This document shows, one piece after another, positions 2,563-28,897 of a stretch of 31,744 bases of DNA. The stretch is from a virus. Location of the stretch: the IMG/VR virus record IMGVR_UViG_3300037349_000203, positions 1 to 31,744 of that record; one strand, given 5' to 3'. Position numbers and translations under genes: made by a program. How positions within the stretch are numbered: position 1 is the stretch's first letter; each line of letters starts with the position of its first letter. A model generated the notes under the pieces. It had not been told where the DNA came from, made no database searches, and saw only the letters and a list, made by a program, of their open reading frames with translations.

Positions 2563-3479
2563 CAGTTGTCCCATGGGGAGTTTGAGTAACCGGGACCGGG
2601 TGTGTCGCTGGAGTCGTCCTCGTGCTGCTCAAGCCAGCACTCGCCGTTCAGCCACGTGCCGGGATGCTTGGTGTATTCGATGTCCCGCGACTTGCGGCGC
2701 CGGTCATCGCGGTAGCGCTCGGCTCCGAGAATGATCTCTTTCGGGTCGACGCCGCGCTTGACGACGGCGGTCTTGTACGCCTTGCGGGCTTGGCCCTTGG
2801 CGACCTTGCGCGGGTAGACATCCCAGAACGCGCAGAAGTCCGGGTCGCTGTCTGAACCAGGTTCGATCCGCTTCCCGGCCGGCTCCTGCCGACCAAGAGG
2901 GTTTATTACCTCTGACTCTGTCTCTGACTCTGACTCTGTCTCTGTGGACTCAGACCGTTTCAGTACAGAGAGACGGTCTGAGTCCGGAGGTGGATCAGAA
3001 TTTCGATCAGTATTCTGATCTCTACTTCGATCAGTAGTCTGATCAGTAGTCTGATCCTCTTTGCGGCACCATTCGCATGCCGGGTCGGGGATCTCAGTCT
3101 CAACATGCCAGCGGCGATGGTTGGCCAGCCGGGCGCCGCGGGACTTGGCGCGCGACTTCCGCTCAATGGCCTCACGGCTCGGGTTGCGCTTGAGCCAGCC
3201 GGTCACCAAGTACCCGTCTGCGACCTGCTTGCACAGGCCAACGGCTACCAGGTATCCGGCCTGCCGCTTGCCGATGGCTTCTGGGTCCGGATAACACAGC
3301 AGCCCGATCTGCTCGGCGGGCACGGAACCATCTGACTTGTTTTCCTTGCAGTAGAGAAGCATCTGGGCATAGAGGTCACGCGCCGGGCGGGCCTCACGCC
3401 CGTAGCGGATGAGGGCGCGGACCTTCCGGTTGTCGGGAAAGTTCACCGACAACTGGATGTGGAGTTCCCCCGCAGGCAC
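2562..3479 (-). CDS. Phage replication initiator / helicase-loader-like protein
   Basis: A 305-residue protein with the layout of phage O/DnaD-type replication proteins: an N-terminal winged-helix-like part (LIRYGREARPARDLYAQMLL, VGLCKQVADGYLVTGWLKRN), a low-complexity hydrophilic middle, and a C-terminal FWDVYPRKVAKGQARKAY ... KHPGTWLNGECWLE module typical of phage initiators. The middle (about residues 140-195) is encoded by iteron-like and TCTGAC repeats (see the repeat entry), as in initiators that carry their own origin. GTG start, directly after the TAG of the upstream gene, with only a weak ribosome site. Assignment rests on layout and motifs. Confidence 0.75.
   Translation of the reverse strand: MPAGELHIQLSVNFPDNRKVRALIRYGREARPARDLYAQMLLYCKENKSDGSVPAEQIGLLCYPDPEAIGKRQAGYLVAVGLCKQVADGYLVTGWLKRNPSREAIERKSRAKSRGARLANHRRWHVETEIPDPACEWCRKEDQTTDQTTDRSRDQNTDRNSDPPPDSDRLSVLKRSESTETESESETESEVINPLGRQEPAGKRIEPGSDSDPDFCAFWDVYPRKVAKGQARKAYKTAVVKRGVDPKEIILGAERYRDDRRRKSRDIEYTKHPGTWLNGECWLEQHEDDSSDTPGPGYSNSPWDN
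2911..3056. repeat. Candidate replication origin: iterons and hairpin in the initiator gene
   Basis: An unusually AT-rich stretch. Three elements are visible: TCTGAC/TCTGTC short tandem repeats (2911-2945); a perfect 13-bp inverted repeat GGACTCAGACCGT / ACGGTCTGAGTCC (2946-2958 and 2973-2985, 14-nt loop); and repeated GATCAG/CTGATC units with TAGT or TATT spacers (about 2993-3056). Lambda-type phages place their origin as iterons inside the initiator gene. Repeats, local AT-richness and position fit that model, but origin activity is an inference. Confidence 0.6.
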
Positions 3480-4055
3480 CTACGCCGCCGATCCGGTCGG
3501 ACCGTTGTCGCGCTTGACGAATCGGGCTGAGAGCGCGGCCTCGCACGCCTCTCGGATCCGGTCCTCGCCCTGGCCGCCGAAGTAGTCTGGGCACTCATCC
3601 TCAGCGAATCTGGCGCCGAAGCGGCCGGGGAACGCGAGGTCGAAGTGGTGGCCGCTCGGGCATGGCCGCCATTCCTGCGTGTCGTCTTCCCAGCCGCCCT
3701 TGAGCGGGTTGTCCTGGGTGTCGTCCCCGCCGTAGATGTGGGGCCTGCTGTGAATAGAAGGCACCCCTGTGATCAGGAGGGCGCGCGAGGGCTGCGGGCG
3801 TTGCGTTACGAACCGCTGAAACTTGGCTACACCCTCAGGGTCTTCCCACCAGTTGGGTTTGACCTCGGCCCAGATGTTGCCGAGTGGGGCGAAGATCAGG
3901 AAGTCGGGCAGATACCACTCGCCGTCGGTGTTGAAGCCCTGCGCCTCGTACTCCCACTTCAGTCCGAGATGGTCGAAGAAGATCGCCCATCTAGCTTCAG
4001 CGCGGGACCTGAAGATCAGCCCACCGTGAGGAGTGGGGATGGAGTTGCGTGTCAC
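3480..4055 (-). CDS. PD-(D/E)XK-like nuclease family protein
   Basis: A 191-residue protein with a recognisable PD-(D/E)XK signature: FRSRAEARWAIFFDHLGL near the N-terminus, then YLPDFLI and, about 13 residues later, WAEVKPNW, supplying the D and the E-x-K residues. Proteins of this type occur in actinophage early regions and may nick, cut or process DNA; the substrate is unknown. The C-terminal half has an RPCPSGHHFD segment and acidic stretches. GTG start at 4055 with a weak ribosome site. It is the first gene of the leftward run 4055-1 and abuts the initiator gene. Confidence 0.7.
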   Translation of the reverse strand: MTRNSIPTPHGGLIFRSRAEARWAIFFDHLGLKWEYEAQGFNTDGEWYLPDFLIFAPLGNIWAEVKPNWWEDPEGVAKFQRFVTQRPQPSRALLITGVPSIHSRPHIYGGDDTQDNPLKGGWEDDTQEWRPCPSGHHFDLAFPGRFGARFAEDECPDYFGGQGEDRIREACEAALSARFVKRDNGPTGSAA

Positions 4056-4782: not shown

Positions 4783-5072
4783 GCGGCCTTCTCCCGTCCG
4801 CACGCCGAGCAGATGAACCCGGCCGGGGGTTTCCCGTCACATTGGATGCATTCCGGTTCGGCGCATGCGTCAGCCAGGGACAGCCCGAGCGCGGCGGTGA
4901 CTGTGAGGGCACTGCTCAGTGCCGTATCGCGGCCTTTCTCGATGCGTATGACGGTGGATGTGGCGACGTTGCTTTTGCCGCTTAGTTCCCGGAGGCTCCA
5001 GCCGCGGCGTTCCCGTTCCCGTTTGATCCGCTGGCCGAACGCGGCCGGGACGCTATTTGATCGCAATGTCAT
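4779..5072 (-). CDS. XRE-family HTH protein with C-terminal cysteine motif
   Basis: A 97-residue protein. Residues about 10-70 form a Cro/C1-type helix-turn-helix (FGQRIKRERERRGWSLREL, then VATSTVIRIEKGRDT and ALTVTAALGLSLADA). The tail has ECIQCDG and FICSACG, a possible four-cysteine zinc site. It probably binds DNA. The start at 5072 overlaps the methyltransferase stop as ATGA. Its place after a methyltransferase recalls control proteins of restriction-modification systems, but no restriction enzyme is visible nearby, so that is speculation. Confidence 0.75.
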   Translation of the reverse strand: MTLRSNSVPAAFGQRIKRERERRGWSLRELSGKSNVATSTVIRIEKGRDTALSSALTVTAALGLSLADACAEPECIQCDGKPPAGFICSACGREKAA

Positions 5073-5241
5073 GCGGCCTCCTGTGCTTCTGTGCGGGCCA
5101 GCAGGAGATGCAGGGCCATCGCCGCCTGGGCCGGGACGACTCCATTCCCCAATGCCTTCAGCTGGGCGTTGCGGGACAGGCCGGGGACACCGGTCACCCA
5201 GCCTTCGGGTAGACCCATGAGCCACTCCACGAAAGCCGGAC

Positions 5242-6486
5242 TCAGGCGCTGTCCTGTTCGTCCAGGCTCAGTTGGCGGTGGGGCTGACCTTCCGAGGACG
5301 GCTTCCCAACGGCGGATGGCGGGGGCGTAGTTCCCCCACTCCAGAACACGTCCGAAAGTGTCGTCCCCGAGTGATGACCCGTTGAGCCGGGCGTCCGTCC
5401 TGCTGTCGCGTTCCTCGTGTTCCGTGAGTCCGCGACCGTCGGTGTCGGCAGGAGCCATGGTGCCTTGGTCTCCACTGCCGCTATGCAGTCGTCGAGGTTG
5501 CTCCGGCGCCCGTTCAGCGACTGCGGTCCCTTGTAGCGGGCCGGGTCCGCGCCGCGGCTCGTGCCGTCCCCCAGCCGCGCTGTCGGTGTCGGCAGGAGTG
5601 CCGCCACGGACGCTAGGTCCGGGCTCGCCCCGCCGTTCCTGCCCATCGCCCGCCCCGGCCGGTGCCGTTCCGCCGCCTCCTCGGGCGTCCGATCCTGCGT
5701 ACTGGCCGTCGGGGTCGGCAGGAGCATCTCCACCACCTCGTTCAGTGGCCGGGCGTTCCGGTCCATGATGTTCGACTGCCCGGACCACCAGTCCCTCGCT
5801 GCAGGTGTCGGCAGGAGATCCATCACCGCTGACGGCAGCATCAGATCCCCGGATGAGCCGCGCTGGTTCGGGCCGCCCTTCGTCCCGTCCGTCGCCCGTG
5901 GTGTCGGCAGGAGTTGGTGTTCCACCTGGTCGGCCAGTGTCGGCCCGTGGCCGCCCGCCTTCCGTTTCTCCGGGTCCTGTGAACCACCGTTGGTCGCCAG
6001 TTGCGCGGTCGGGGTCTTCAGCAGATGCGTGACTGCTGTGGCCACCGTCACCGACCGCTTGCTCCCCGAGGGTCGCCGGCCCCCCAGGTCCGCTGATACC
6101 CGGCCGCCCGTCGCGTCGCTCGCCTCCGGGGTCGGCAGCAACTGCTGGGCTGCTATCGCCAGCGGTGTCCCTTGCCCGTTCCCGTTGATCCCCTTCGCCA
6201 GGTTCGCCTGCCTGCGCGCTTCCCAGGACTCGAGCGTTTCTCCGTCGTTGAAGTTCCCCGCCGCGGGTGTTGGTAGCAAGGATGAAGACCCGCTCCCGGC
6301 GGTGGGGTGCGCCCGCGTCGGCTGCGGGTACGCAACACCATTGCGTGTCATACCCGAGACCGGCCAGGTCCCCGAGAACGGTTCCGATTGCCCGAACAAG
6401 TCGCCGTTCATGCCATTGGCATCGAGCCACGATCCGCTTCCGGTATCCCATGAGGCGATGGGCCCGGGCCTGTATTGCGATGACAC
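5242..6486 (-). CDS. LLPTP-repeat protein overlapping the methyltransferase in another frame
   Basis: A 414-residue frame lying wholly inside the methyltransferase gene on the same strand. It has SEPFSGTWPVSGMTRNGVAY near residue 35, then about eight LLPTP (or LLKTP) segments spaced 30-50 residues apart, often followed by A-x-D. From memory, such TWP-SGMTRNG and LPTP proteins recur with phage methyltransferases, so this looks like genuine dual coding. GTG start at 6486. In the other frame the same DNA encodes the methyltransferase around motif VIII and its variable linker. Function unknown; each repeat comes from a CTCCTGCCGACACC-like unit. Confidence 0.6.
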   Translation of the reverse strand: MSSQYRPGPIASWDTGSGSWLDANGMNGDLFGQSEPFSGTWPVSGMTRNGVAYPQPTRAHPTAGSGSSSLLPTPAAGNFNDGETLESWEARRQANLAKGINGNGQGTPLAIAAQQLLPTPEASDATGGRVSADLGGRRPSGSKRSVTVATAVTHLLKTPTAQLATNGGSQDPEKRKAGGHGPTLADQVEHQLLPTPRATDGTKGGPNQRGSSGDLMLPSAVMDLLPTPAARDWWSGQSNIMDRNARPLNEVVEMLLPTPTASTQDRTPEEAAERHRPGRAMGRNGGASPDLASVAALLPTPTARLGDGTSRGADPARYKGPQSLNGRRSNLDDCIAAVETKAPWLLPTPTVADSRNTRNATAGRTPGSTGHHSGTTLSDVFWSGGTTPPPSAVGKPSSEGQPHRQLSLDEQDSA

Positions 6487-6928
6487 GGCGGGTGTCTCCT
6501 TTCGCTATCGCGACGGTCAGGGTGCGTGATTGCCACTCCAGCAGCCGGAAGGCAATGTCGCGGGCGGCCTCGTCGGCGAGGTGTTCCGGTGTCGGCTCGT
6601 CACCGCGGGCGGTCAGGAGCCCGCGGACGTTCTCGATCACGACAAGGCGGGGCCGCAGTGCGCCGATGGCGCGGGCACAGTGGGCCCAGACGCCGCTGCG
6701 GGTGCCCGCATGGAGCCCGGCGCGCGCCCCGGCCGCCGACACATCCTGGCAAGGGAAGCCCCCCGTGAGGATGTCCACGGGGTCCACGGCAGCCCAGTCG
6801 ACCGCCGTGATATCACCCAGGTTGGGTACGTCCGGGTAGTGGTGGGTGAGGATCAGCGCCGCACCCGGGTCGTTGTCCGCGACCCAGGCGAGCTCGCCAC
6901 CGAGCACCGATTGCACGGCCATTCCTAG

Positions 6929-6938
6929 GCCCTCGTAA
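6929..6938 (-). repeat. 10-bp direct repeat, left copy
   Basis: TTACGAGGGC on the minus strand. Identical to the copy at 7804-7813, and the match stops at both ends. Here it follows the recoded GGC-TAC and precedes CTAGGAATGG of the methyltransferase body. Because the repeat begins with TTAC, it adds four bases after a TAC codon and offsets the frame. Confidence 0.85.
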
Positions 6939-6969
6939 GTAGCCTGAGCAAAGGGAACCAATGCGAAGC

Positions 6970-7551
6970 TCAGACATCTCCACCACCCCCAATCCGCTGC
7001 ATCGTCCCGCGCCCAAGCTGGGCACGGCGACGTGCGTCAAGGCGGCGATGGCAGCGAGGGCACAGCCGCGCGTAGTCGTTGATGTCCTCGTAGTGGCCCG
7101 TCAGGTTGGCCCAGTGGTACTGAATGCGAGGGTCGGTGGTGTCGCAGCACGCGCAGTGCTGCGGTCGCCCGCGAGCCGTAATCACGCGAAGGTGCATCGC
7201 GCTATATCCGGCGTCGTCCCCTAGCCAGCAGTCGTTGTTCGCGCCGCGCTGCTCACGCTTGCCAAGGCCGCGCCGCTCGATACCGTGGCGCGGCATGAGT
7301 CGCTGAAGCACTTTGATGGTGGTGCCGCAGGCTTCCGCTACTTCGCGCATCGTGTGCCCGGCTTCGTAGAGCACGCGCACACGGTCGACTAGTTCCGGTG
7401 GATCTTCAACCTGCGGTGCTCCAGGTGATGGCGTCCTGCGCTCGCGGAGGTAAGCGCGACAGGAGTAGCTGCAGGTCTGAGCGGTGAGCGAGCGCGTCTT
7501 AAATGGCGTCTCGCAGATCACGCATTCGGCTTCCCGGACGGGGCTAGGCAT
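6970..7551 (-). CDS. HNH endonuclease, probable homing-type
   Basis: A 193-residue protein. Residues 8-35 have ECVICETPF ... CSYSCRAYLRER, a four-cysteine zinc-finger-like start. A middle helix-turn-helix-like part (VRVLYEAGHTMREVAEACG ... VLQRLMPRHGI) probably reads DNA. The C-terminal half is an HNH nuclease (HCACCDTTDPRIQYHWANL, NDYARLCPRCHRRLDARR). DNA-reading modules joined to an HNH core are typical of phage homing enzymes. Start at 7551; a TTGACT-18-AAGACT promoter ends 6 nt before the ATG. Its TGA overlaps the recoded methyltransferase start by 8 nt. Confidence 0.85.
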   Translation of the reverse strand: MPSPVREAECVICETPFKTRSLTAQTCSYSCRAYLRERRTPSPGAPQVEDPPELVDRVRVLYEAGHTMREVAEACGTTIKVLQRLMPRHGIERRGLGKREQRGANNDCWLGDDAGYSAMHLRVITARGRPQHCACCDTTDPRIQYHWANLTGHYEDINDYARLCPRCHRRLDARRRAQLGRGTMQRIGGGGDV

Positions 7552-7609
7552 GTGACTAGTCTTCCAGCAGGCTTGCCGCCTAGTCAAGCGACAAGTAGCG
7601 TTGTGACTA
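7551..7609. promoter_or_regulatory. Divergent promoters and TGTGACTA operators of the cassette
   Basis: TGTGACTA occurs twice, at 7551-7558 and 7602-7609, each touching one of the two start codons. An inverted core TAGTCA lies between them (7581-7586), and GACTAGTC at 7554-7561 is a perfect palindrome. Rightward promoter: TTGCCG (7573-7578), 17 bp, TAGCGT (7596-7601), ATG 7 nt later. Leftward promoter: TTGACT (7582-7587), 18 bp, AAGACT (7558-7563). Both transcripts would be leaderless. The layout suggests autoregulation by the HTH protein. Confidence 0.6.
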
Positions 7610-7800
7610 TGGTTGCCGTCATGCATCACCTGATGGGCGCGGCCGAGATTGCAGCACGCTTGGGTGTCAGCCGCCAGCGGGTGCAGCAACTCGTGTCGCG
7701 AAGGGACTTTCCGAAGCCGGACGCCGTGCTCGGCATGGGCAAGGTCTGGCGCACCGAGGACGTTGAGCGATGGATTCAGGAGCATCGCCCCGGCACTTGA
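7609..7800 (+). CDS. AlpA/excisionase-like HTH regulator of the cassette
   Basis: A 63-residue protein with one MerR/AlpA-type helix-turn-helix (MGAAEIAARLGVSRQRVQQL) and a wing-like FPKPDAVLGMGKVWRTEDVERWI typical of small phage regulators and excisionases. The ATG at 7609 sits 7 nt after a good -10 box, fitting a leaderless transcript; ATG 7621 is the alternative. It points away from the HNH gene and shares its control region, so it may limit nuclease expression. It ends four bases before the right 10-bp repeat copy, and so lies wholly inside the insertion. Confidence 0.8.
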   Translation: MVAVMHHLMGAAEIAARLGVSRQRVQQLVSRRDFPKPDAVLGMGKVWRTEDVERWIQEHRPGT

Positions 7801-7803
7801 CTC

Positions 7804-7845
7804 GCCCTCGTAACCAGAGCACAGCGAGCCGATGCGCCTCTTCAC
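7804..7845 (-). pseudogene. Severed original 5' end of the methyltransferase
   Basis: The original start is GTG at 7845, overlapping the stop of the RusA gene as GTGA, the same coupling used elsewhere in this operon. Fourteen codons give MKRRIGSLCSGYEG, the start of motif I, and end at the right copy of the 10-bp repeat. Beyond that the frame runs into insert DNA and encodes nothing recognisable before it joins the HNH frame. Codons match the operon's style (ATC, GGC, TCG, CTG), unlike the recoded copy at 6939-6977. Confidence 0.8.
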
Positions 7846-8291
7846 GCAACACCTGCCGTGGTCTCATCGGTGACCTCGGTGACGCGAAGCACCAGCTGCC
7901 CGCGCGGAACCGGTTCGCCTATTTCGCAGCTGACACGGGCGACGTACCGCTTGTCGTCACCTTTAAGCACACCCGCCGCGACTATCCCATCGATTGCGTA
8001 CTTGACCCCTGCGGAAATATTGTCCGCGTCGCGGTACCGCCGGTCCGGTGGCCGGTACTCCGCGGTGATGGTCACTCGTTCGAGGTGCGGCACTTTCGCT
8101 TTGCGGGTCATGATGATCGCGGCGTCCCTGATGACCTGCCCGTGGCGGTTGCGTGCCGCCCAGTGGGCGCGGTCGTTCAGGGAGAGGATCTGTATCCCGG
8201 CGGGGAGTTTGATCGTGAACGTGCGGGTTCTTCCACTGGCAGGACGCGCTTCCCGCACGCCTGCCGCCGGGCTGCCCGCCGTGCCGGTCAC
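7842..8291 (-). CDS. rusA: RusA-family Holliday junction resolvase
   Basis: A 149-residue protein. The RusA signature is clear: RRYRDADNISAGVKYAIDGIVAAGVLKGDD, with aspartates that bind the catalytic metal, after an N-terminal LSLNDRAHWAARNR segment typical of the family. RusA-type enzymes cut Holliday junctions formed during phage recombination. The first 20 residues are alanine/proline-rich. GTG start at 8291 overlaps the upstream stop as GTGA. It sits with exonuclease and Cas4-like genes, consistent with a phage recombination module. Confidence 0.9.
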   Translation of the reverse strand: MTGTAGSPAAGVREARPASGRTRTFTIKLPAGIQILSLNDRAHWAARNRHGQVIRDAAIIMTRKAKVPHLERVTITAEYRPPDRRYRDADNISAGVKYAIDGIVAAGVLKGDDKRYVARVSCEIGEPVPRGQLVLRVTEVTDETTAGVA

Positions 8292-8452
8292 GACGCCTGC
8301 CTCGCCAGCTTGCAGGTCGCCTCAATCTCAGCGTCCAGCCATTCCATCGCCGTCTGCGGGCGTGGAGCGGACACGGCTGAACTGGAGGAAACAGTGGGGG
8401 TCAGTATGTAGCTGTACGCACTGCTGCTGGAGGTGATGTAAGGCACGGTCAT
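8288..8452 (-). CDS. Small hypothetical protein
   Basis: A 54-residue protein between the coiled-coil gene and rusA. The ATG at 8452 overlaps the upstream stop as TGATG and its own stop overlaps the rusA GTG as GTGA, which is the main evidence that it is real. The N-terminal half is serine-rich (ITSSSSAYSYILTPTVSSSS); the C-terminal half is a short helix (AMEWLDAEIEATCKLARQAS). No family recognised. Confidence 0.65.
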   Translation of the reverse strand: MTVPYITSSSSAYSYILTPTVSSSSAVSAPRPQTAMEWLDAEIEATCKLARQAS

Positions 8453-8925
8453 CAGGCCGCATCCTTCCTGGATGCCGGCCGGGGTGTCGCACCGCCGGTC
8501 AGTGCAACGTCGATCACGGGAAGGCGCTCCAGGATGGCCTTGAGGATCTCGTCCTGCCTATCCGCGCGCTGGTCGAAGTGGTCACGCTGGAACTTCATCT
8601 CGGCCTCGAAGCGTCCCCGGTCGGCCACCAGGTTCTCCTCGCGGACCTCCAGGACGGCCATGCGCCGGGCGTGCTCCACGTCGTGTTCCTGCTTGGTCTT
8701 GAGCAAGCCGGTCTTGTGCTCGGTTTCCCGGATCTTCCGGTTGCTGTCCTCGGTCAGCCGGGCTTTCTCCAGCTCAAGCTTCTCCACGTCTCCGCGGAGT
8801 TTCTTGACGCGGCCGGTCTCGTCCCGTTCGGTGCGGAGCGCCTCGATCACAACGCGCAGCTCCGCTATCTCTGCGGCGAGCTTGTCCCGCTCAGCGTCGT
8901 GCGGCTGGGTGCAGATGACTTTCAC
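8452..8925 (-). CDS. Coiled-coil protein
   Basis: A 157-residue, highly charged protein that is almost wholly heptad-patterned from about residue 10 to 125 (DKLAAEIAELRVVIEALRTE, VKKLRGDVEKLELEKARLTE), followed by a hydrophobic LKAILERLPVIDVALTGG tail. A long parallel coiled coil is the only structural call. GTG start at 8925 overlaps the upstream TAG by one base and has AAGGA in front. It could be a scaffold or partner of the recombination proteins, but no function can be assigned. Confidence 0.7.
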   Translation of the reverse strand: MKVICTQPHDAERDKLAAEIAELRVVIEALRTERDETGRVKKLRGDVEKLELEKARLTEDSNRKIRETEHKTGLLKTKQEHDVEHARRMAVLEVREENLVADRGRFEAEMKFQRDHFDQRADRQDEILKAILERLPVIDVALTGGATPRPASRKDAA

Positions 8926-11154: not shown

Positions 11155-11870
11155 GCTGTCGCCGCCGTCCATGTTTTGATGGGCCAGGACCCGTCGATGA
11201 CCTCGGTTTTGCCCTGCTTGCACAGGTAGTCCTGGAAGCTGGCAGCCTGATCAGCCTTGGCTTTCACCTGCAGGTCGTGGAGTGCTGTCGTGGAGAGCGC
11301 GGCGAGGGTGGTGCTGGCCGCGCCGATCTTCCACGCGCACCGCATCGCGGCGATGGCGTCGGCCGCCGCATCGTGCGCGCCGTCGAGTTTGACGCCGTAG
11401 TGCTCGCAGGCAGCCGTCAGGGTTCGCTTGCCCCTGCGGTAGGGGTCCAGGTACTTGTCCAGCACAAACGGGTCAATGACACGCCCGGTGCAGCCTTCGA
11501 ACACTCCGCCGAACGGTTCCACGCCATACCGGCGTGTCTCCCGGTCAAGCACAGTCAGGTCGTAGGGGGCGTTATAGATCACCAGTGGAGCACCCTGCAG
11601 CAGGACGGAGACAAGCTCGGCGCTCACCTCGTAGGCGACCTTCGCCCGGTCGGCCCCCCTCTCAATAGCGTCTTCGGTGGTGATCCCGTGGATGGCTGCC
11701 GCTTCGGCCGGGATTTCGATGCCGGGGTTGGCGAGCCACGTCATCTGCTTGGTGATCCCGGCACCGTTCCAGACGACGAGCGCGGCGGTGACGATCCGCG
11801 CCGTTTCCGGGTCCGGTGAGGTCGTCTCCAAGTCGAAACCGGCCATCGGGCCGGGAAACCAGCCGGTCAC
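11151..11870 (-). CDS. DnaQ-like 3'-5' exonuclease
   Basis: A 239-residue DEDDh exonuclease. ExoI is MAGFDLETTSPDPETARIV near residues 9-27, with the D-x-E metal ligands; ExoII is YNAPYDLTVLD near 98-108; ExoIII is HDAAADAIAAM, with the DEDDh histidine. It would remove 3' nucleotides, for proofreading or end processing. GTG start at 11870 overlaps the stop of the directionality-factor gene as GTGA. The C-terminal about 50 residues are extra helices of unknown role. Confidence 0.88.
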   Translation of the reverse strand: MTGWFPGPMAGFDLETTSPDPETARIVTAALVVWNGAGITKQMTWLANPGIEIPAEAAAIHGITTEDAIERGADRAKVAYEVSAELVSVLLQGAPLVIYNAPYDLTVLDRETRRYGVEPFGGVFEGCTGRVIDPFVLDKYLDPYRRGKRTLTAACEHYGVKLDGAHDAAADAIAAMRCAWKIGAASTTLAALSTTALHDLQVKAKADQAASFQDYLCKQGKTEVIDGSWPIKTWTAATA

Positions 11871-13045
11871 TGCCCACCACCGGGTGGTGTGACGGGTGGC
11901 CAGTCATCGGCGGGCGGGTCCTCAACCGGCAGTGCGTCCTGCGGGGGCACGGCTGCCGGCTGACGGCGCGCCTTGGCGGCGCGGGAGAGCGCGTCCCAGC
12001 GGGCCTGCCAGGCCGAGTGCACTTCCTCCCACACCTCGTGGTCGCCGTCGCCGGTGCACACCTGGTCATCCCAGACACCAAGGTCCAGCGCCCGCTTCTT
12101 GATCGCGTTCATCTGGGCGGGCGTGATGGTCAGGTCGCTCATGAGGCCGACGATCCGCTGCCCGGCGGTGGCGATGTCCATCTCGGTGATCGCGGCGAGC
12201 TCGGCGTCGAACCCTTGCGGTGCGGCGGCGGGAGCCGGCGTGGATGCGGCCGGAGCGCCGGTCGTAAGCGCGCGGCGCTGCTCACCGGGGGCGGGTGGCA
12301 GCTGGGCGGCGACACCGGCCCGCTCAAGCGCACCCGAGGTCAGCTCCCGGAACGTCGGGATCACCTCAAGGACCGGCACCGGGAAGTTCTTTGTCATCCC
12401 GCCGGCGACCCGCTTCCGCTGCTCGATCCGCAGCATCGCCGGGAGCATCACCTTGTGGTCGCGGGCGTACTGCATCAGCGCGGCACTGTCCCCGATCTCC
12501 ACGCCGGCGTAGTACGAGCCGGTGTCGAGGCGGAACACACCGAGGCCGGGCAGGTCAGGGATCATGACAGAGATCCGGGTGACCAACTTGCAGGCTTGCG
12601 GCGGGTTCGTCTTGGACAACTCGGCGCGCTTGAGTGCGGCCTCGGCCACCTCGTCAGCGTTCGAGGGGTTCTTCGCGTGCGGGCACAGGCATGGGCTGTT
12701 ACTGATCTGGTCCCGCTGGCTATCGCATCTGCGGACCGCCCCGCCCTTGTTCCACATCTCATACCACTGGGAGATCACCTCGTCCCGCGGCGGGACGATG
12801 ACAGGGATCTCGGTGGCGTCGGTGGCGACCTCAAACTCGCGCTCCCAATGGCGGACCTCGCCGCCGAACCGGGCGGCGATGGCCTCGGCCTCAAAACGGG
12901 AAGCGGTGGTGAGGCGCCAGGTGTCCCGGCGGGAGGGGCGCATCTTCTCGTTCCCGTCCTTGTCGAACTTGCCGGTGCCGACCTTCTCGCCCATGCGCAG
13001 GCGGCCGATCTGCTGGCTGCGGCGCTGCAAGTCGAGCACGCCCAT
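11867..13045 (-). CDS. Gp3-like recombination directionality factor
   Basis: A 392-residue protein resembling the Gp3-like family, named after the phiC31 protein that switches a serine integrase from integration to excision. Supporting stretches: SQQIGRLRMGEKVG, RPSRRDTWRLTTASRFEAEA, ATEIPVIVPPRDEVISQWYE, DLPGLGVFRLDTGSYYAGVE and PVLEVIPTFRELTSGAL. The middle has PCLCPHA and ACK cysteines; the C-terminal 130 residues are alanine/proline-rich, then helical. ATG 13045 lies 1 nt past the nuclease stop. The call is from memory of the family. It implies a serine integrase elsewhere in the element. Confidence 0.65.
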   Translation of the reverse strand: MGVLDLQRRSQQIGRLRMGEKVGTGKFDKDGNEKMRPSRRDTWRLTTASRFEAEAIAARFGGEVRHWEREFEVATDATEIPVIVPPRDEVISQWYEMWNKGGAVRRCDSQRDQISNSPCLCPHAKNPSNADEVAEAALKRAELSKTNPPQACKLVTRISVMIPDLPGLGVFRLDTGSYYAGVEIGDSAALMQYARDHKVMLPAMLRIEQRKRVAGGMTKNFPVPVLEVIPTFRELTSGALERAGVAAQLPPAPGEQRRALTTGAPAASTPAPAAAPQGFDAELAAITEMDIATAGQRIVGLMSDLTITPAQMNAIKKRALDLGVWDDQVCTGDGDHEVWEEVHSAWQARWDALSRAAKARRQPAAVPPQDALPVEDPPADDWPPVTPPGGGQ

Positions 13046-17034: not shown

Positions 17035-17607
17035 ATGAGTCCCCCCGACTGGCCGAGGCTCGGTCACTACGTGCGCGAACGCCGCACCGAGCTAGGTCTC
17101 ACGCAAGAGGAAATCGCGACACGCGGAGGTCCCTCGACGGCTACTCTCCGTCTCATCGAGGGTGGCAAGGGGCCTTTCCGGGCGAAATCACTGCGACAGC
17201 TAGCGGACGCGCTCCACTGGACCGCTGAATCGCCTCACGCAATCCTGGCGGGCCGCGAACCCGCGGAAGCAGCGGGCCACCACTCCGGCACCCGCAGCGC
17301 CGAACCTGAACCGGCTACCGGAATCGAGCCGCCCGAGCCTGTCTCCCCCGCTGTCGCGAGCGCGATCAGTGGCCTCGTCGCGAGCCTCACCCCGGCTGTC
17401 GAGGTGGACATCCGCCGTGCCCGGCTGCGGATGCAGAGACAAGACGTCACCGGGTGGGAAGTCTTCGCCGACGAGTACGAGGCGAAGATCTGGGATTTGC
17501 AGCTGCCTGAGTCCCGGCGGGTCGCGATCATTGCGTTCCTGCGGGCCAAGCGTGCCCAGGACCAGGCTGAGGCCGATGGCGGCAGGTTTCCCAACAGGTC
17601 CAGCTAG
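17035..17607 (+). CDS. XRE-family regulator of the switch, rightward
   Basis: A 190-residue regulator. The HTH domain lies at about residues 5-68 (WPRLGHYVRERRTELGLTQE, EIATRGGPSTATLRLIEGGK, RAKSLRQLADALHWTAES). A proline-rich linker follows, then a helical C-terminal domain (VEVDIRRARLRMQRQDVTGW, then LPESRRVAIIAFLRAKRAQD). This N-terminal type is common in Streptomyces. ATG 17035 has only a distant AGGA site; the in-frame extension upstream is poor coding. It faces the other XRE gene, so it is the likely maintenance repressor, by inference. Confidence 0.8.
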   Translation: MSPPDWPRLGHYVRERRTELGLTQEEIATRGGPSTATLRLIEGGKGPFRAKSLRQLADALHWTAESPHAILAGREPAEAAGHHSGTRSAEPEPATGIEPPEPVSPAVASAISGLVASLTPAVEVDIRRARLRMQRQDVTGWEVFADEYEAKIWDLQLPESRRVAIIAFLRAKRAQDQAEADGGRFPNRSS

Positions 17608-26839: not shown

Positions 26840-28897
26840 ATGGGCCGCGTCGAGCGCAGCTGGAGCGGGGACGGTTACGTGCAGGGCACAGTCGTCTCTG
26901 ACTCTGGCGTCCCCGCTGAACCGGCGCGGCCCGAGCCCGAACCCGAGCCCCGTAAGCCGGGCGCGCTGCGGCTGATGGGCCGCCAGCATGGCCCGTTCAT
27001 CAAGCCGTTCTTGTGGATCGGTGTCCTGTGGGTGGCCGGCGCCGTCGCGCACCGCGCCCAGGGCCTCGAGGTCCGCGCGCTGCTCACCGTGATCCCGGTG
27101 ATCGTGTCCGGCCTGCTGATCGTCCGCCGCACCCGCAAGGGCACCCCGGAGCGGCTGCATGCGGTGGCGCCGTGGGCGACTGGTTCACTGTGGCTGCTGG
27201 CCGCGGGCATCGTCACGGGGCCTGCCGGGTGGATGGTCGCGATCCTTGTGATCGGCGGCGCGTTCCTGGCCGGTACGCGTGCCCATGAGGTGGCCGGGAA
27301 GCGCCGGACCACCGTCCCGCCCGCCGCCGAACCGGAACCCGCAGCCCCGCCCGCGGCGCAAGACCGCGACGAGGACCACGGCCCCACCCGTCAGCCGGCC
27401 CTGGATGAGGACGATTACATCCCGCCCGGTCTCGCCGACCTCAAGCCTGCTAATCAGCCTGACCCGGGGAAGCTCATCAACGCGAGCAAGATCATGGTCG
27501 CCGCCCTTGCTGAGGTGCTGGAGCAGTTCAAGGTAGACGCGCAGGTCACCGGATACACCCGCGGCCCGCAGGTCACCCGGTATGAGGTTGAGGTCGGCCC
27601 GGCAGTGAAGGTGGAGAAGGTCACCGGCCTGCAGAAGAACATCGCCTACGCGGTGAAATCCGATGCGGTGCGGATCATCTCCCCGATCCCCGGTAAGTCC
27701 GCGATCGGCGTGGAGATCCCCAACGTGGACCGGGAGATCGTTGCCCTCGCCGATGTGCTGAAGTCCCCGGCCGCGGTCGCTGATCATGATCCGATGCTGG
27801 CCGGGCTCGGTAAGGACGTTGAGGGTGTGGCGGTGCTGGCGAGCCTGCGGAAGATGCCGCACATGCTCGTGGCCGGAAGCACTGGCAGTGGCAAGAGCGT
27901 CTGCATAAACACCCTGATCACCTCGGTGCTGACCCGTGCCACCCCGGACGAGGTGCGGATGATCCTCATCGACCCGAAGCGGGTTGAGCTGAGCATCTAC
28001 GAGGGCATCCCGCATCTGATCACCCCCATCATCACCCAGCCGAAGAAAGCCGCTGAGGCGCTGGAATGGGTGGTGGGGGAGATGGAACGCCGTTATGACG
28101 ACCTGGCCGCCTCCGGGTTCCGGCACGTGGACGACTACAACCGTGCGGTCGACGCCGGGAGGCTCGTCGCCCCGCCCGGCAGCGAGCGGGCGTACCGGCG
28201 TTACCCGTACCTGCTGGTGATCGTGGATGAGCTCGCCGACCTGATGATGGTCGCCCCCCGCGACGTTGAGGATTCCGTGGTCCGGATCACCCAGCTCGCC
28301 CGCGCCGCCGGCATCCACCTCGTGCTGGCGACCCAGCGGCCCAGCGTGGATGTGGTGACCGGGCTGATCAAGGCCAATGTCCCGTCCAGGCTCGCGTTCG
28401 CCACCTCCAGCCTCACCGATTCGCGCGTGATCCTCGACGAGGGTGGCGCGGAGAAACTCATCGGCGAGGGTGACGCCTTGTTCCTGCCGATGGGTGCGAA
28501 TAGGCCGGTCCGGCTGCAGGGCGCGTTCGTGTCGGAGAAGGAGATCCGCGCGGTTGTGGAGCACTGCAAGACCCAAGCCCAGCCCGAGTACCGCCGCGAC
28601 GTGCTGCCCGCTGAGGGGCCCGCGAAGGTAATCGACGGGGACATCGGTGACGACCTTGACCTGCTGTGCCAGGCCGTTGAGCAGGTGATCAGCACCCAGT
28701 TCGGGTCGACGTCCATGCTCCAGCGGAAACTGCGGGTCGGGTTCGCGAAAGCCGGGCGCCTGATGGACCTGATGGAATCCCGCGGCATCGTCGGCCCGTC
28801 CGAGGGGTCTAAGGCCCGCGACGTGCTCGTCAAACCCGACGAGCTCACCGAAACCCTGGCCTCTATCCGGCCGGCCAGCAACCCTGAGGAGAACTAG
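26840..28897 (+). CDS. FtsK/SpoIIIE-type DNA translocase
   Basis: A 685-residue hexameric DNA pump. N-terminal hydrophobic segments (about residues 55-147) anchor it in the membrane. An acidic, proline-rich linker precedes the alpha domain ([40 protein letters not shown]). The motor has Walker A GSTGSGKS (about 346-353), Walker [13 protein letters not shown] (about 458-469) and [20 protein letters not shown]. The last about 70 residues form a gamma winged-helix domain ([20 protein letters not shown]). The set resembles a complete chromosomal FtsK/SpoIIIE more than a short Tra protein. In this context it may move double-stranded DNA for conjugation. Confidence 0.92.

Follow-up and report, generated by a model that had tools for sequence, protein, structure and literature searches.

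The locus described here raises the question of why a viral genome should encode the beginning of a C5-cytosine methyltransferase (MTase) gene twice, on either side of an HNH endonuclease gene, and whether the MTase gene is still usable in this arrangement. The window, i.e. the whole 31,744-nt stretch of IMG/VR record IMGVR_UViG_3300037349_000203 that was analysed, carries on its minus strand, in this order, a broken MTase start, an insertion segment, the HNH gene, a second 5' end, the tetranucleotide TTAC and the MTase body. The left 5' end of the invaded gene (VKRRIGSLCSGYEG; 7804-7845, minus strand) starts with GTG and is truncated at motif I. The HNH gene (6970-7551, minus strand) encodes a protein of 193 amino acids with N-terminal CxxC pairs, a helix-turn-helix (HTH) and the HNH. 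The cassette-borne 5' end MSELRIGSLCSGY (6939-6977, minus strand), which the preliminary description called a recoded copy, has homologues at related loci. It is followed, directly after the SGY codons of motif I, by the frame-breaking insert TTAC (6935-6938, minus strand), which is conserved in the loci L004 and L091, and then by the MTase body, which starts within motif I, at EGL, and is read in the +1 frame (5069-6934, minus strand). The MTase of the window matches PF00145 (E 2e-26), but its motif I is divided over two frames.

Both copies of the segment RIGSLCSGY terminate in a 10-bp direct repeat (GCCCTCGTAA, reading TTACGAGGGC on the minus strand), the left copy of which lies at 7804-7813 and the right copy at 6929-6938. 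When the flanks were fused across this repeat, a single open MTase frame was obtained (VKRRIGSLCSGYEGLGMAVQ...). The stop codon of an HTH gene (HTH_17, PF12728, E 1e-7; 7609-7800, plus strand), which lies within the insertion and is divergent from the HNH gene, is 3 nt from the left repeat. An origin of the 10-bp repeat as a transposon target-site duplication is formally possible, but the repeat is absent from the other loci with left copies, and a truncation at a cut site fits better. Homologues of the HTH gene with 80-85% identity occupy the same position in L003 and L004, and its product is probably a regulator of the cassette.

As the preliminary description had noticed, RIGSLCSGY is encoded twice on the minus strand, with six of the nine codons differing and every difference synonymous. 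The first copy reads GTG AAG AGG CGC ATC GGC TCG CTG TGC TCT GGT TAC GAG GGC (7845-7804), and the second reads ATG TCT GAG CTT CGC ATT GGT TCC CTT TGC TCA GGC TAC (6977-6939). The second copy does have its own ATG overlapping the stop codon of the HNH gene (ATGTCTGA); the first had been placed at 7819-7845, nine bases off, the RIGSLCSGY codons being at 7836-7810. The duplication was thus confirmed, and what had been overlooked is the insert: TTAC (6938-6935) lies between TAC and GAG, and the second copy is out of frame with the MTase body. Frame 0 across the joint reads MSELRIGSLCSGY-LRGPRNG, and the MTase body reads YEGLGMAVQ in the +1 frame.

Related loci were searched for by IMG/VR scans with the HTH, the HNH, an HNH alignment and DNA patterns, by tblastn against phages, and by two genome scans. 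The first HNH alignment (A1) found no relative in the genomes, and the second (A2), in which the row for L103 is a read-through of a frameshifted HNH gene and which was used for searching only, found L114. HNH relatives without an adjoining MTase gene (L110-L113) were set aside, and plasmid and further phage searches for more loci yielded Gordonia phages and weak relatives only. In total, 13 further pairs of HNH and C5-MTase genes were found in phages and one bacterial metagenome-assembled genome, giving 14 loci with the window. In all 14, the related HNH gene ends at or just ahead of the C5-MTase start.

Motif I was frame-broken in 11 of the 14 loci, at the same few codons. The insert is TTAC (+4) in the window, L004 and L091; TGAAC (+5), with an in-frame TGA, in the Gordonia phages Gudmit and Lton; and TTTC in place of TTC (+1) in L102, L103, L105, L109, L116 and L117. 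In-frame inserts were found in L003 (TTACTC, +6) and L114 (ATA, +3), and L100 is the only locus with a clean joint and no insert. A single common insert was ruled out, the insert lengths varying by clade. The window and six relatives (L003, L004, L100, L102, L103 and L117) retain a truncated left copy, which ends after YEG, I, IG or IGGG. The left truncations and the inserts on the right lie within ca. 9 bp of each other, and we therefore took this position as the putative cut site of the nuclease. There is no left copy in L091, Gudmit, Lton, L105, L116 and L114, although the HNH gene and the adjacent 5' end are present.

Is the insert tied to the nuclease? Motif I was in frame in all of 80 related MTase loci without this HNH gene, which had been fetched with the MTase body of the window, versus out of frame in 11 of the 14 loci with it; the association had a Fisher P value of 5e-12 when counted over loci and of 2e-4 when the loci were collapsed to six insert classes. 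The +1 form was also sought in the DNA of all IMG/VR by a blind scan that made no use of the HNH gene; it hit six contigs, every one with the HNH gene. Six stretches matched the TTAC form in a further scan; two of them are MTase genes, both with the HNH gene. In a tree of the HNH proteins, a single branch separated each of the +1, +4 and +5 groups from the rest (none of 200 shuffles was as low). Since the insert groups follow the branches of the HNH tree, inheritance of the insert goes with that of the nuclease gene.

The extent of the moving unit was estimated from two pairs of loci. Compared with the uninterrupted MTase gene L007, an empty allele, the window showed 63-83% identity over the first ca. 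95 nt and then ca. 99-100% over long stretches. Identity was 96% across the first 1.15 kb, in which the divergent start is included, and 100% across the final 386 bp. The point of exchange lies near 6854, ca. 80 nt past the insert, and on this alignment the sharp jump in identity beside the insertion is a recombination breakpoint. A similar boundary was seen between L116 and L117, which are 82-95% identical through most of the HNH gene, the 5' end and 60 nt beyond TTTC; past that tract, the identity drops to roughly 45-55% for most of the remainder because L117 carries another MTase type. Breakpoints 60-80 nt past the joint are as a homing cassette would leave them, and their presence in both pairs argues that the moving unit consists of the HNH gene, the 5' end, the insert and a short tract. 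At least in these two cases, the window and L116/L117, the MTase bodies are thus recent captures, differing where the cassette is shared, and their intactness is for that reason not evidence of function.

These results bear on the interpretation given in the preliminary description, according to which the element brings a replacement 5' end that keeps the host gene usable and resists re-cutting by virtue of its altered codons. The replacement 5' end and the logic of homing were supported, by the broken left copies at six related loci and by the breakpoints past the joint. The in-frame, usable gene did not stand, as the joint is frame-broken at the DNA level in 11 of the 14 loci. The word copy applies to the window, which does contain two versions; six loci have no left copy, so the second 5' end need not be a copy. 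The synonymous differences between the two versions look like ordinary divergence of a cassette-borne 5' end, and the motif I insert would be the best candidate for protection from re-cutting, synonymous recoding being less so.

The assignment of the nuclease was examined with profiles and a structure model. The HNH protein of the window matched the HNH endonuclease family phrog_8446 in PHROGs (E 3e-18), and it was not recognised by Pfam. The model, built from an alignment without the two Gordonia rows, has an HTH at residues 52-88 and a beta-beta-alpha HNH core at residues 146-186, with a modest mean pLDDT of 67. A Foldseek search with the model gave no match at E<=0.001. The HNH part aligned with 4h9d (Z 5.6) and 5h0m (Z 5.4), an HNH nickase and a phage HNH endonuclease, respectively, and alignments with Z of ca. 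5.5 back the HNH identity without proving it. In L103, the HNH gene is itself frameshifted at ca. 1060 (KTEGNR*), by decay or assembly error. In L119 (the same as L109), at ca. 2980-3340, an HNH domain is fused to the N-terminus of an apparent D12-type adenine MTase (MSVGAPFPWFGGKSSVAS...), its own HTH having been lost.

Whether a protein is made across the broken joint was addressed by the pattern of codon differences. Upstream of the insert, in pairs that are related and short, frame 0 showed four synonymous differences to no replacement for the window and L004 (P 0.003), nine to none for L105 and L109 (P 5e-5), and five to one for L103 and L109 (P 3e-4), and in the other frames the same differences were nearly all replacements. 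Just downstream of the insert, it was in the shifted frame that most differences were synonymous. Between the window and L004, the joint has 90% identity and the HNH genes have 60%. Since the frame of synonymous change switches exactly at the insert, and does so over an old divergence, these patterns suggest that one protein is made across it. Synonymous evolution on either side of the joint, each side in its own frame, makes ribosome hopping or +1 shifting the probable means by which the frame is restored, a step less certain than the homing of the cassette.

The joint of the window contains the codons TAC, TTA and TAC (TAC-TTA-CGA), i.e. matched take-off and landing codons around a slow codon, TTA being the rarest sense codon (1 of 5081 codons). 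Hops between matched codons at a slow codon in the A site have been described, and UUU is a natural +1 shift site in a mobile element (PMC5009743). In the window, the peptidyl-tRNA-Tyr would leave UAC at UUA, re-pair with the UAC 4 nt further along and resume at GAG, so that the product would read exactly SGYEGLGM. The +1 clade has UUU-C, which belongs to a known type of +1 shift site and would slip to UUC to give FSGIGGFSLG. In all insert classes, the triplet ahead of the resume codon is similar to the take-off codon (P 2e-4, post hoc), and matched landing triplets would also be expected had the insert arisen from a small duplication. The +5 joint of the Gordonia phages, with UGA in the A site and AAC as the landing codon (two of three bases matching), is a poorer fit to a hop. 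RNA folding downstream of the joint of the window was about as strong as in shuffled sequence, with no unusual structure. The insert of the window is 4 nt long and has no stimulatory hairpin, and it is thus not a gap of ca. 50 nt of the gene 60 type.

Taken together, our main reading, to which we assign a probability of about 0.6, is that the locus carries a mobile HNH homing cassette directed at MTase motif I, with a replacement 5' end and a protective insert, the frame probably being restored by recoding. The target would be motif I (FSG[Y/I]GG, the SAM-binding loop) of phage C5-cytosine MTase genes. The comparisons above showed that the HNH gene travels with a substitute MTase 5' end and ca. 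60-80 nt beyond it and has been recombined onto different MTase bodies, and likewise that the joint usually holds a short insert (0, 1, 3, 4, 5 or 6 nt) within ca. 9 bp of the left truncations. The nuclease would cut uninterrupted alleles at motif I and repair would copy the cassette in. The insert, aided by synonymous divergence, would render the cassette's own allele uncuttable. With less certainty, ribosomes would skip the insert, so that the MTase is still made. As a counterpoint, the insert lengths of 1, 3, 4, 5 and 6 nt, together with the absence of an insert from L100, indicate no single recoding mechanism.

The main rival accepts the same homing cassette and holds that the insert kills the MTase, whose bodies look intact through constant re-capture from functional genes. 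The near identity (ca. 99-100%) of the body in the window to the intact gene L007, the exchanged body of L117, and the fact that most inserts are not multiples of three and share no common recoding signal are all in keeping with it. A dead MTase, however, would leave the cassette's 5' end nothing to gain from coding, and this 5' end diverges only synonymously. Moreover, the broken joint is shared over a long divergence of the HNH genes, all four complete +1 bodies run to normal C-termini, and the MTase start remains coupled to the HNH stop. We therefore regard this rival as unlikely.

Other readings dispense with homing. That the two genes form a translationally coupled pair resembling a restriction-modification system, the frame break limiting the MTase level, would account for their overlap in a fixed order and for the six loci without any left copy. 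Such a pair is very improbable, since MTase body types have been swapped behind one HNH gene and 5' end and the HNH protein would hardly be able to track one methylation specificity; the truncated left copies and the clustering at motif I would also go unexplained. A self-splicing intron that joins the left copy to the body in the mRNA agrees with the single reading frame restored by deletion between the direct repeats. No Rfam family matched within 4900-8500 at E<=1, however, and neither the second, separately started MTase 5' end nor the loci without a left copy would be explained, which leaves an intron with only a slim chance. The MTase start might also simply have been duplicated in part, the HNH gene being a passenger and the 4-nt insert an error of sequencing or assembly, as the short repeat and the single contig of the window would suggest. 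An error of this kind was ruled out by the same joint in the independent contigs L004 and L091 and an equivalent joint in two sequenced Gordonia phage isolates; given also the strict association with the HNH gene, a plain duplication is scarcely credible.

We found no description of the HNH-MTase arrangement in the open-licence literature. Bonocora et al. reportedly described in 2011 a cassette of phage T4 consisting of mobA (HNH) and the 50-nt translational bypass of gene 60. To our knowledge, this combination is treated as unique and the origin of its bypass as speculative. According to two articles, mobA is a homing gene that split the topoisomerase gene 39, and the 50-nt insert of gene 60, bypassed by ribosomes, may protect against the nuclease (PMC5009743, PMC3014915). 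As in T4, an HNH homing gene splits a conserved phage gene and lies directly upstream of the interrupted part of its target (in 14 loci here), and a short frame-breaking insert follows just downstream of the nuclease gene and is missing from relatives without the nuclease. The protein of gene 60 is made by a bypass between matched codons; the window also has matched codons, and the bypass here is inferred. Unlike T4, where the target is a topoisomerase and the insert has 50 nt with a hairpin, the target here is a C5-MTase and the insert has 1-6 nt (or 7 nt at a second site), the entire 5' end is supplied anew by the cassette, and several lineages use different inserts. Because the target, insert size, hairpin and 5' end differ, and because the functional steps were deduced, we did not class the cassette as a member of the mobA/gene 60 system. 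By analogy, it may represent a second, more widespread version of the T4 'ribosome-hopping' nuclease cassette.

In fungal mitochondrial elements (e.g. at Allomyces atp6), a group that the preliminary description had used for comparison, an endonuclease gene likewise brings a substitute piece of its target gene. The joint of those elements is in frame, unlike that of the window and most of its relatives. In Cluster O mycobacteriophages (Corndog and Firecracker), an HNH gene lies ahead of the tape measure gene, and mass spectrometry indicated that the tape measure protein is translated non-canonically, from an ACG start or by bypass (PMC4351075). As at our loci, an HNH gene has entered a phage gene right at its start; the protein of that gene is still made by non-canonical translation, as the MTase probably is here. 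In these mycobacteriophages, the HNH gene separates the start codon from the gene, and both HNH and target differ from those of the window. In Mycobacterium phage Firecracker (L128, 1112-1740), the HNH gene lies between the start codon and the remainder of the tape measure gene and occupies the target's ATG position. A suspected bypass at UUA in the terminase of Streptomyces phage Hau3 is cited in the review PMC5009743; like the joint of the window, it involves a rare UUA in an actinobacterial phage, and, unlike the window, it is not tied to a homing nuclease in that review. No duplicated 5' end was seen in the Firecracker HNH-tape measure genes or the Gordonia LAGLIDADG-MTase genes when these were examined. 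In Gordonia phage Sedona (L121, 2476-4296), a LAGLIDADG-annotated ORF overlaps a long uninterrupted MTase frame in another frame, and the annotated gene split may be wrong. In Mycobacterium phage Schatzie (L123, 1195-2718), the MTase gene is interrupted by a different HNH gene and annotated 'unable to determine intron boundaries'.

That these loci form a previously unrecognised homing family, in which programmed ribosomal recoding allows MTase motif I to tolerate a 1- to 6-nt insert at the cut site, is a tentative proposal to which we give somewhat less than an even chance. If it is true, gene 60 would be one case of a recurrent route by which homing nucleases become both immune and harmless. 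The several lineages with inserts of 1, 3, 4, 5 and 6 nt at one site, the clean joint of L100 and the empty alleles make the origin of bypass testable, as they do the questions of whether such small inserts at the cut site protect the gene that hosts the nuclease and whether translation adjusts to them. The family supplies natural candidates for very short hops and +1 shifts across several host groups, and it suggests that motif I of MTase genes serves as a target of homing.

L100 contains, within the same MTase gene, a second HNH gene (ca. 3090-3600) unrelated to the first. The heptanucleotide TAATGCG follows it and separates precisely the P codon from the C codon of the catalytic motif GGFPCQDVS; this second site is an independent case of a nuclease and an insert at a conserved motif. 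In the window, a frame of 414 amino acids with ca. 10 LLPTPxA repeats (5242-6486, minus strand) overlaps the MTase body in another frame. LPTP stretches of a similar kind were seen in the MTase genes of L004, L091 and Gordonia phages, in some cases in the MTase frame itself, and dual coding or frame exchange is possible. The window further encodes a recombination directionality factor resembling Gp3 (11867-13045, minus strand), a tRNA-Arg(gcg) (17239-17325, minus strand) and a complete FtsK-like protein that has both alpha and gamma domains (26840-28897, plus strand).
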